Part shown: in pieces, positions 52,552 through 58,372 of the stretch
Layout of the letters: each line of letters opens with the position of its first letter
Numbering within the stretch: position 1 is the stretch's first letter
DNA from: Solobacterium sp.
GTDB taxonomy: Bacteria; Bacillota_I; Bacilli_A; Erysipelotrichales; Erysipelotrichaceae
NCBI GenBank assembly: GCA_017539385.1
Contig: JAFYHC010000048.1
Location: forward strand, 1 to 64,000
Length of the DNA stretch: 64,000 bases
Direction of reading: 5' to 3'
The notes under the pieces: generated by a model
The model's input: only the letters and a program-made list of their open reading frames with translations
What the model was told of the DNA's origin: nothing
The model's database searches: none
Translations under genes and position numbers: made by a program

Positions 52552-53226
52552 TTACAGTTCCATGGAAAGGTTTGCGGAGTGCGAACTGATCACGGACAGG
52601 TTGCCGTTCCGCACTCTCACACCATCCAGGAATTCCTTTTCTCTGGCGGTATCTTTCAGTTCAATATCATACGTGATCTGATACAGCGTGCCGAGATTGA
52701 CCGTGCGTACGGACTGGATCTCTGCTTTCTTTGTATATTCCGCAAACAGATCATCGAAGACTGTCACATAGTCGAGATCTTCCGGAATCGTCACACGCAG
52801 CTGACGGTATCCCGAATCGGCATCAAAGAGCGATGTCTTCATGCATGCGCACCATACTGCCGCAAACAGTACCGCAGCCGCAAGTGCCAGCCAAACATAG
52901 CCCATGCCTGTGCATAAGCCCAGTGCCATGGCAATGAAGATGATCAGGATATCGCTTGCCTTGCCCGGCATGGAGCGGAAACGCACCAGGGAGAAGCTGC
53001 CTGCTACAGCAACGCCTGCCCCAAGATTGCCGTTGACCAGCAGGATCACCAGCATGACGATTGCCGGTAAGATCGCAACTGTTACGGTAAAGCCTTTGGA
53101 AGGATGTTCTGTCATGCGGTATGCCATTGCAAGCAGTATTCCGGATACGAGGCTGACCGCGATGCAGATCATAACTGCCGTAACAGAAAGTCCGGCAGAT
53201 GTATTTGTTAATATGGAAGTGAACAT
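52552..53226 (-). CDS. DUF4956 membrane protein, partner of the polyphosphate polymerase
   Basis: A 224-residue protein with about four membrane segments in the first 135 residues and a soluble C-terminal domain. G-S-F-S-L-V-R-F-R-S and the K-A-S-D-I block identify DUF4956. The domain is widely found beside VTC-domain proteins in bacteria; function unproven, plausibly a membrane partner for polyphosphate synthesis or translocation. Overlaps the VTC gene by 19 bp. Confidence 0.88.
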   Translation of the reverse strand: MFTSILTNTSAGLSVTAVMICIAVSLVSGILLAMAYRMTEHPSKGFTVTVAILPAIVMLVILLVNGNLGAGVAVAGSFSLVRFRSMPGKASDILIIFIAMALGLCTGMGYVWLALAAAVLFAAVWCACMKTSLFDADSGYRQLRVTIPEDLDYVTVFDDLFAEYTKKAEIQSVRTVNLGTLYQITYDIELKDTAREKEFLDGVRVRNGNLSVISSHSANLSMEL

Positions 53227-53987
53227 AATCTAGTCTCCTTTTGCCATTCAGGCTGTATTGCAGAATACCGGAGTTTTCCGGTAACGCTTAATGCTTCAAA
53301 GTTTTCTCTGTAGATCGTTGTATATTTCGAGAAGGATGTACGCTGCAGGTTCATTTCAGACAGGATGCGCACCAGCCACATCGGGTAGCGGTCCATTGCC
53401 TTGACCTCCAGCATCACCCATCCGTCATTCAGTTTCTTCTCCGTGCCATGATCATTGAGATCATCCAGGTCATCCAGACGGTAGCGGATATTGGTGTCGA
53501 AGGTAATGCGTACATCGCTTTCTTCAATTCCTGCATAGCATTCCCGGTCATAGCTGATCAGGACTTTTGCCTGCAGGTTATCCTTTTTCATCATGTAATC
53601 GATCTCTTTCGCCGTGTTGGATGTATCTTGATGCGGGATGCCGTATTCCATGTAGTCCACCCCGTTTCTGCAGGGCAGTGCAAACCGTTTCTTGTATACG
53701 ATATTGCCGTATTTCTTTTTGGTTTCCAGGAAGACTGGATCACTGTCTTTTACGATGTTGTATCCGCGCATGCGCAGCTTGCATTTGTATTCCGGGTGTT
53801 CCATGGCGGCCACCGCAAGATCACACTGTTCTGTATCGTAATAGATACTGTGGATGGAATAGCGGAAGTAGACATCCGGAACGACATGTTCACGGATCTT
53901 TGTCAGGAATTCTGCGGCCTGCCTGGGTGTCAGGCGGTATTTATCTTCGACTCTCTTGAAGGTGTCGATCGGTTTCATGTTTTCCAT
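53208..53987 (-). CDS. VTC-domain polyphosphate polymerase
   Basis: A 259-residue VTC-domain protein, the tunnel fold that makes polyphosphate from ATP in yeast Vtc4. Basic and acidic tunnel strands are visible: E-D-K-Y-R-L, S-I-Y-Y-D-T, K-L-R-M-R-G-Y, E-T-K-K-K-Y and K-K-R, S-Y-D-R-E, I-T-F-D-T, and V-M-L-E-V-K. It contains a single VTC domain and no SPX domain or membrane segment; the membrane partner is DUF4956. AAGGAGA precedes ATG 53987. Pho-box-like repeats lie upstream. Confidence 0.9.
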   Translation of the reverse strand: MENMKPIDTFKRVEDKYRLTPRQAAEFLTKIREHVVPDVYFRYSIHSIYYDTEQCDLAVAAMEHPEYKCKLRMRGYNIVKDSDPVFLETKKKYGNIVYKKRFALPCRNGVDYMEYGIPHQDTSNTAKEIDYMMKKDNLQAKVLISYDRECYAGIEESDVRITFDTNIRYRLDDLDDLNDHGTEKKLNDGWVMLEVKAMDRYPMWLVRILSEMNLQRTSFSKYTTIYRENFEALSVTGKLRYSAIQPEWQKETRLCSLPY

Positions 53988-54006: not shown

Positions 54007-54037
54007 AATACTCTAATGGGTGAATCTGTAGAGTATT
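54007..54037. repeat. Nine-bp inverted repeat in the VTC operon leader
   Basis: AATACTCTA (54007-54015) and TAGAGTATT (54029-54037) are exact reverse complements with a 13-bp spacer. It overlaps the last Pho-like repeat and precedes the ribosome site; operator or leader hairpin. Confidence 0.6.
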
Positions 54038-54063
54038 TGATTGAAATTTGAACTTTATGTGAA
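54036..54063 (-). promoter_or_regulatory. Pho-box-like repeats upstream of the polyphosphate operon
   Basis: On the minus strand TTCACA, TTCAAA and ATCAAA occur at exactly 11-bp spacing (54058-54063, 54047-54052, 54036-54041). This resembles PhoP/PhoB direct-repeat boxes. A TACTCT -10 candidate lies downstream. Confidence 0.55.
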
Positions 54064-56419: not shown

Positions 56420-56908
56420 TCAGTATTCTTCCTGCGGCAGAAGTGTATTGGCCGGACGGCGGCGGTGTCCCAAGAGGAACTGACCGGTGACAGTCACTGT
56501 CATCTCCGGCTTGTATTCCGACATCGGTGCAGCTGCCCGCAGATAGGCACGGCCTTCGATCAGGACTCTGTCCCCTTCATTGTATTTATATACTTCATCC
56601 GCCCGCCAGTCTTTTGCGGCAAAGCTGATGATATCATAAGCGCCTTCTTCTTCCGTATAGGAATGATAATAGACACGGCTTCCTGTCTCTTTCAGCAATA
56701 CCTGGATCTTCCGGTCGCATCCATGCACCGTCAGACGGCCGAATGCCATCTTCTTATCCTGTTCGGTCCCGAGATCGGTGCGGATGCGCGCAAGACCGTC
56801 GCGCTCAATTGTTCCGATCATCGTGATATGGTAGCAGATCACTTCCCCATCCTTATCCCGGATGGACTCAAATGAGAAATAATCTCTGTACCTGTTTCGT
56901 GGTTCCAT
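56420..56908 (-). CDS. SSB-like OB-fold protein
   Basis: A 162-residue protein with an SSB-type OB-fold pattern: H-I-T-M-I-G-T-I-E-R-D, then F-G-R-L-T-V-H, then Y-D-I-I-S-F-A-A-K-D-W and G-D-R-V-L-I-E-G-R-A-Y-L-R. The usual acidic SSB tail (D-D-D-I-P-F) is missing; it ends Q-E-E-Y. It is likely a paralogue or divergent SSB rather than the main replicative one. ATG 56908, with GGGAGGG 12 nt upstream. Preceded by a long leader. Confidence 0.7.
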   Translation of the reverse strand: MEPRNRYRDYFSFESIRDKDGEVICYHITMIGTIERDGLARIRTDLGTEQDKKMAFGRLTVHGCDRKIQVLLKETGSRVYYHSYTEEEGAYDIISFAAKDWRADEVYKYNEGDRVLIEGRAYLRAAAPMSEYKPEMTVTVTGQFLLGHRRRPANTLLPQEEY

Positions 56909-57145: not shown

Positions 57146-57206
57146 TTGACATGAATTTCAATCATAATTCACCCAAAGTTCACATTTTGGAAGTACACTA
57201 TTCACG
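57146..57206 (+). promoter_or_regulatory. Pho-box-like repeat array and promoter of htrA
   Basis: TTGACA (57146), TTCAAT (57157), TTCACC (57168), TTCACA (57179) and TTCACG (57201) all lie on one 11-bp register (57190 is degenerate). A TACACT -10 candidate is at 57194-57199, downstream of the three best repeats. Same pattern as upstream of the VTC operon. Confidence 0.6.
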
Positions 57207-57229
57207 GTTAAAGAAAGAAGGCGTTAACT

Positions 57230-58372
57230 ATGAGTGAGTATGAATATGATTACAAACCGGAAAGAAAAAACCGGAATCATCCGGTGCTGACCGCAGTACT
57301 GGCCGGCACTCTTGGACTTGGCGGCGGATTTGCCGGAGGCTATGTTGCAAGCCGCACAGCCGCAAAAACACCGGCCGTTGTCTATACAGCATCAGAAAGC
57401 GGCACCAGTCCCACCGCAACAGCAAGCGGAACCGCTACAGGCATGACCATCAGCCAGGTAGCCGCAAAAGCAACACCGAGCATCGTAGAGATCGTAACAG
57501 AAGTCACCGGACAGACCTATGGCATCTGGGGCGGCACCTATACATCCAATGCGGCCGGATCCGGCGTCATCCTGACAGCCGACGGATATATCATCACCAA
57601 CAACCACGTGATCAAAGATGCAACGACCATCAACATTACCACGTATGACGGCAAGCAGTATCCTGCGACAGTAGTCGGTGCCGATGCAAAATCCGATATT
57701 GCCGTATTGAAGATCGAAGCTTCGAATCTGACACCGGCAGTCATCGGTGATTCCTCCAAGGTACAGGTCGGTGATACCGCAGTCGTTATCGGCAATCCGC
57801 TCGGCACACTGGGCGGTTCGGTCACCAACGGCATTATTTCTTCTGCCAACCGTCTGGTTACGATCGACAATGAATCCATGAATCTGATCCAGACCGACGC
57901 AGCCATCAACAACGGCAACTCCGGCGGCGGAATGTTCGACGGCAGCGGCAATCTGATCGGCATCGTCAATGCGAAAGACTCCGGAACGACCAGCTCCGGT
58001 GCGATCATTGAAGGTCTTGGATTTGCTATTCCGATCAATACCGCAATGGACGTTGCCGGACAGCTGATGGAATACGGCAAAGTTACCAACCGTCCGACGA
58101 TCGGTGTCTACCTCTCTCAGGTCTATCAGTCCCAGGGCCAATACACAGCCGGACTGTATATTACCGATATCATCGCGGGCAGCGCTGCCGAAGAAGCAGG
58201 ACTGCAGGCATATGACCGCATCGTCAAGGCAGACGGACAGGATATCGAAAGCTATTCCGATCTTTCCGCAATCATGCTGAATAAGAAGATCGGTGATACG
58301 ATGGATCTGCTGATCGACCGTGAAGGTCAGGAAATGACGATCACGGTAACACTGACCGGCACAGTCGAATGA
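57230..58372 (+). CDS. htrA: HtrA/DegP-type serine protease
   Basis: A 380-residue surface protease. Cytoplasmic N-terminus, membrane anchor at 19-40, low-complexity Ser/Thr/Ala linker (50-72), then a trypsin domain with His126 (N-N-H-V-I), Asp156 (S-D-I-A-V-L-K-I) and Ser231 (G-N-S-G-G). A single C-terminal PDZ domain (about 290-378). Degrades or refolds damaged exported proteins. Promoter region carries Pho-box-like repeats; ribosome site weak (AAGG). Confidence 0.96.
   Translation: MSEYEYDYKPERKNRNHPVLTAVLAGTLGLGGGFAGGYVASRTAAKTPAVVYTASESGTSPTATASGTATGMTISQVAAKATPSIVEIVTEVTGQTYGIWGGTYTSNAAGSGVILTADGYIITNNHVIKDATTINITTYDGKQYPATVVGADAKSDIAVLKIEASNLTPAVIGDSSKVQVGDTAVVIGNPLGTLGGSVTNGIISSANRLVTIDNESMNLIQTDAAINNGNSGGGMFDGSGNLIGIVNAKDSGTTSSGAIIEGLGFAIPINTAMDVAGQLMEYGKVTNRPTIGVYLSQVYQSQGQYTAGLYITDIIAGSAAEEAGLQAYDRIVKADGQDIESYSDLSAIMLNKKIGDTMDLLIDREGQEMTITVTLTGTVE

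Follow-up and report, generated by a model that had tools for sequence, protein, structure and literature searches.

An 11-bp direct-repeat element upstream of htrA points to a probable CiaRH-like envelope-stress regulon with a candidate thiol-bearing two-component system

Introduction

HtrA is usually controlled by envelope or secretion stress. In streptococci, htrA belongs to the regulon of the CiaRH system, whose OmpR-family regulator recognizes a TTTAAG-N5-TTTAAG repeat with 11-bp periodicity, about 10 bp before the -10 element, and whose targets are htrA and a set of small RNAs (csRNAs) with anti-Shine-Dalgarno cores (PMC3091779, PMC8186281). In S. gordonii, a failure to form disulfides switches CiaRH on (PMC5112981). 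In Streptomyces, two extracytoplasmic cysteines of the sensor kinase CutS control htrA3, and their exchange for serine locks the system on; kinases with two or more extracellular cysteines are encoded in most bacterial genomes (PMC12802291), so that a cysteine pair is not by itself diagnostic. Here we describe a repeat element upstream of an htrA gene in a 64-kb stretch of Solobacterium DNA (the window), the promoters elsewhere that share its architecture, and the two-component pair that may act on it.

Results

A helically phased array in the htrA promoter

The window encodes a 380-residue trypsin-like protease with a PDZ domain (57230..58372, plus strand; Pfam Trypsin_2 and PDZ_2), the product of htrA; its match to the NCBIfam model degP_htrA_DO falls below that model's cut-off. 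A Shine-Dalgarno sequence, GAAGG, precedes it at 57217..57221 (plus strand). The sequence-only reading had reported five hexamers in exact 11-bp register before this gene, and all five are indeed there, TTGACA at 57146, TTCAAT at 57157, TTCACC at 57168, TTCACA at 57179 and TTCACG at 57201. The register itself holds for four of them, which form an unbroken run from 57146 to 57184; the next slot, at 57190, reads GAAGTA, and the fifth hexamer stands two units off. Written as four TTSAH words, the 11-bp run occurs once in the window, both strands counted. Periods between 8 and 20 bp other than 11 give no such run there, and it did not arise in any of 200 Markov-resampled windows.

The four boxes are not equivalent. 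Boxes 3 (TTCACC, 57168..57173) and 4 (TTCACA, 57179..57184), both on the plus strand, form the core, and box 4 occupies the place of a -35 element, 9 bp upstream of a -10 element, TACACT (57194..57199, plus strand). From the latter we predict a start point near 57206. The fifth hexamer (57201..57206, plus strand) lies past the -10 element and overlaps this predicted start; because no genome but the nearest relative (locus L089) has it too and it is absent from the conservation logo, it probably falls outside the regulatory element.

HtrA orthologues were collected across the family (145 genomes) and the genus (60 genomes), start codons were picked without reference to the motif, and the core was compared among the promoters. 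Within the genus, TTCAC-N6-TTCAC is perfect in 30 of 32 htrA promoters (resampled mean 0.03), essentially at a spacing of 6 only, and a TANNNT follows the second core box at exactly 9 bp in all 30. Weaker logo columns appear in these 30 promoters one helical turn upstream of the core (TT.A, 11 bp, over box 2, 57157..57162, plus strand) and two turns upstream (TTCNC, 22 bp, over the distal box 1, 57146..57151, plus strand), and boxes 1 and 2 therefore belong to the array as degenerate half-sites. Beyond the genus, the core pair is kept in a few genera, and many htrA promoters are without it. The composite site, core pair plus -10 element, matches 122 times in the 60 genomes, against 8 matches for the reversed control. 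Direct repeats, a spacing of about 11 bp and a fixed, short distance to the -10 element are the layout of OmpR/PhoB-family activator sites, and the sequence pattern makes us almost certain that the htrA element is a site for a response regulator of this family. The sequence-only reading, which had called the array a PhoP/PhoB-type repeat, is supported as to the class of direct repeat, one helical turn apart; the phosphate control that it attached to the array is not supported.

Similar promoters upstream of a small RNA and a VTC operon

Composite matches that could not be assigned to a gene share a second promoter class, after which come ATTTCTTTCCCTCCC and a terminator hairpin and not, directly, a gene. 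In this genome it belongs to a small RNA at G000:C17:26673-26750 (L123:2179-2245, minus strand) with a four-box site, an UUUCUUUCCCUCCC anti-Shine-Dalgarno core and a terminator. The RNA has a predicted length of about 70-85 nt, its core is complementary to Shine-Dalgarno sequences, and the promoter, terminator and conservation together suggest that it is transcribed. RNAalifold returned no consensus helix, the terminator aligning poorly, and the search model was therefore built on sequence only, from the RNA without its promoter boxes. At E 0.01 this model has a match in 52 of the 60 genomes, and in 38 of these the match reaches 1e-5 or better. Among 20 fetched matches outside the training set, 19 have a distal pair of TTCAC boxes with an 11-bp period and a TANNNT at fixed distance, and one weak match (L285) could not be anchored; 17 of the 20 show the whole array, TTCAC. 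/ TTCACA / nnCATn-like /.ACACA-like in 11-bp register with TANNNT 9 bp later. Since the -10 element was sought within a short range, the 9-bp spacing has less independent weight at the small RNA than at htrA. Rfam holds no family that reaches its gathering score for this RNA, and below that score the matches are at chance level. Thus htrA and small RNAs with anti-Shine-Dalgarno cores, the target set familiar from CiaRH, are found under the same kind of site. In the window, the gene divergent from htrA (56420-56908, minus strand) has no Pfam match, and its unusually strong Shine-Dalgarno sequence, GGGAGGG, is complementary to the core of the small RNA.

The window holds a second site of this kind, TTCACA-TTCAAA-ATCAAA-TACAGA (54010..54063, minus strand), in 11-bp register and 9 bp from its -10 element, TAGAGT. 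Under it lie genes for a VTC-domain protein of polyphosphate-polymerase type (53208..53987, minus strand; Pfam VTC, 137 bits) and a DUF4956 protein (52552..53226, minus strand; Pfam DUF4956), the next in the VTC operon. The promoter layout is alike in three genomes, counting the window and the orthologues in G182 and G179 (loci L287 and L288). Elsewhere in this genome, on L125 (G000:C64), TTCACT-N5-TTCACA at 224-239 is followed 8 bp later by TATAAT, before a gene for a VanY-type D,D-carboxypeptidase (ORF from about 259), which is possibly a further target.

A candidate regulator with two invariant sensor cysteines

Searches of this genome for Trans_reg_C and HisKA domains gave nine and six matches, respectively. 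One response regulator, on L001 (G000:C31), scores as a member of the VanR-ABDEGLN family, above the cut-off of NCBIfam, and adjoins a sensor kinase. An exact scan of the genome for TTCAC-N6-TTCAC found seven places, where the reversed control found four. One of the seven lies 36 bp upstream of a response-regulator gene on contig C88 (L004:1054-1731), paired with a sensor-kinase gene (L004:1715-3154). Among C88-type operons of the genus, 24 of 29 carry the core pair, with the 9-bp spacing to the -10 element in 21 of the 24, and a matrix built from the relatives' sites scores 32 at htrA and 27 at the C88 operon. Because the same site precedes the pair's own operon, we consider the C88 pair the probable main regulator of htrA. 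Every NCBIfam match of the C88 regulator is below cut-off, giving it no family name, and a literature search for a regulator of TTCACA direct repeats found none. A C88-type regulator was not found in G167, G176, G187 and G191, and the composite htrA site is kept in the last three of these; at a mean genome completeness of 88.8%, however, any one gene should go undetected in about 6.7 of the 60 genomes through incompleteness, and regulators missing from single genomes therefore do not decide the matter.

The C88 kinase has two extracytoplasmic cysteines, C82 and C103, that are present in all 29 orthologues within an otherwise variable sensor domain, and thus has the pair of invariant residues that marks a CutRS-type thiol sensor. 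Given the CutS cysteines and the response of CiaRH to disulfide failure, a thiol or misfolding signal for this kinase is a reasonable expectation by analogy. A paralogous kinase on L003 (G000:C22) has both sensor cysteines as well.

Other readings of the htrA site

The alternative that survives best, although we think it unlikely, is that the CssR orthologue of this genome, encoded by a pair on contig C117, reads the htrA site as in Bacillus, and that the C88 operon is merely another CssR target. Bacillus CssR finds its best match in the C117 regulator (50% identity, against 35% for the C88 regulator), and Bacillus CssS matches the C117 kinase. The recognition helices of the C117 regulator and Bacillus CssR are nearly identical (DRVVDD..RRLRRKMP) and the Bacillus CssR box is TTTTCACA (PMC6749698), so that the C117 regulator could read TTCAC too; moreover, in G176, where the htrA site is kept, the C117 pair is the only one detected of the three candidates. 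Bacillus CssR autoregulates, and here the evidence turns against this reading, for a TTCAC pair was found upstream of the C117-type operon, within 1500 bp, in none of 30 genomes. In addition, G159 and G197 keep the htrA site where a C117-type regulator was not found, and the boxes at Bacillus htrB and cssR lack a strict 11-bp register (the Bacillus cssR loci were fetched with a query sequence confirmed by a 99% database match). The same comparisons led us to drop the idea that the C88 pair is itself the CssRS orthologue, since Bacillus CssR and CssS point to C117 and the C88 regulator reaches 35% identity.

It is more doubtful still that the paralogous pair on contig C22 reads the site, alone or together with the C88 regulator. 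The C22 regulator is 58% identical to its C88 counterpart, the recognition helices are similar (DDRTVDTHIKMLR for C22 and DDRTLDTHIKLLR for C88), the kinases share their cysteine pair, and G187 and G191, two of the genomes in which C88 is missing, do have C22. On the other hand, no TTCAC pair stands before the C22 operon in this genome, and C22, like C88, was not found in G176.

Phosphate control of htrA by a PhoP/PhoB-type regulator, the proposal of the sequence-only reading, we regard as very improbable. The regulator class and promoter layout are alike, a VTC gene, from a domain family known in polyphosphate polymerases, follows the second site of the window, and a PhoPR-like pair does exist in the genome, as that reading required; it lies on contig C38, adjoins a Na/Pi-cotransporter/PhoU gene, and has PhoB as its best NCBIfam match, below cut-off. 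Yet the promoters of the PhoPR-like pair (TTTACA-N5-TTTACA-N9-TAGTAT) and of the Na/Pi-cotransporter (TTTACA-TTTACA-ATCCCA-TTGACA-N9-TATCAT), at L120:11026-11057 and about L120:8896-8949 on the minus strand, carry TTTACA repeats in the same 11-bp/9-bp layout and no TTCAC pair; these boxes led us to reject the phosphate reading. The htrA motif was absent from the PhoPR-like pair and the Na/Pi-cotransporter gene, the phosphate genes that this search covered, and no score comparable to those of htrA and the C88 operon was found in the matrix scan at the phosphate genes examined. At these phosphate genes, therefore, the layout is unchanged and the third base of the box is another, and TTTACA, although kept as a pair at phosphate genes in some relatives and not in others, is the likely Pho box of the genus. 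Finally, a chance run of T-rich hexamers, to which the AT-rich intergenic spacer might lend itself, is refuted to near certainty by conservation and fixed geometry in more than 30 genomes.

Discussion

Overall, the reading that best fits these observations is a secretion or envelope-stress regulon that works like CiaRH, under the control of a thiol-bearing two-component system that is not related to CiaRH and is putatively the C88 pair. In such a regulon, failure of the kinase's own disulfide or a misfolded exported protein would switch the C88 kinase on, and the phosphorylated OmpR/PhoB-family regulator would act as an activator, its tandem DNA-binding domains occupying four half-sites that, at a spacing of 11 bp, all face the same side of the helix. 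Only 9 bp separate the proximal box from the -10 element, and the bound regulator may therefore stand in for the missing -35 element and contact RNA polymerase, as the bound regulators at PhoB and CiaR promoters likewise take the place of the -35. Since the same site, at the same -10 spacing, precedes its own operon, the C88 pair would also activate itself, and the response would raise HtrA and in addition make the anti-Shine-Dalgarno small RNA and the products of the VTC/DUF4956 operon. Binding, activation, the signal and a single regulator for all these promoters are what we infer from sequence. On the last point, the strong boxes are distal in the small-RNA/VTC class and proximal in the htrA class, so two regulators are possible, and we hold the chances evenly balanced that one regulator serves htrA, the small RNA and VTC. 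The fuller picture, in which a two-component system without kinship to CiaRH has arrived at the same plan by convergence, with a thiol-bearing kinase and an autoactivated regulator driving HtrA, the small RNA and VTC/DUF4956 in a genus-wide envelope protein-folding response, is offered tentatively, at a little under even chances.

The sites, the -10 element, a candidate regulator and candidate signal residues make up a testable regulon through which a genus that has been little studied may control the quality of its envelope proteins. A family of small RNAs without an Rfam entry is tied by its promoter to the envelope response.

The htrA system works like CiaRH, CssRS and CutRS, yet for each of them a defining feature is lacking. 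From PhoB/PhoP boxes it takes direct repeats in place of the -35 element, with a different sequence and different target genes. The likeness to Bacillus CssRS lies in an htrA-type protease target and in the resemblance of the TTTTCACA box to TTCACA (PMC6749698); unlike there, the site does not go with the CssRS orthologue, a separate pair on C117 whose operon carries the site in none of the 30 genomes, the C88 regulator is not a CssR orthologue, and the Bacillus CssS examined has no cysteine, in contrast to the C88 kinase. With Streptomyces CutRS the system shares a target of the htrA family and a sensor with two invariant cysteines (PMC12802291), whereas the CutR motif, TAWATAAA, is not the motif found here and the cutRS promoter, for its part, showed no CutR site. 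The differences from CiaRH are that the box is TTCAC rather than TTTAAG-N5-TTTAAG, that the recognition helix is unlike CiaR's VVEVYVSKVRKKL, that each genome usually has one clear small RNA, in which the conserved csRNA nonamer is not evident, and that the VTC operon is added. What it has in common with CiaRH is the OmpR-type 11-bp repeat, the spacing to the -10 element, and htrA and an anti-Shine-Dalgarno small RNA as targets. If this reading is true, htrA and anti-Shine-Dalgarno small RNAs under one two-component system are a recurring design that is not confined to streptococci, and the sensing of secretion stress through thiols, as proposed for Streptomyces CutS, reaches another lineage.
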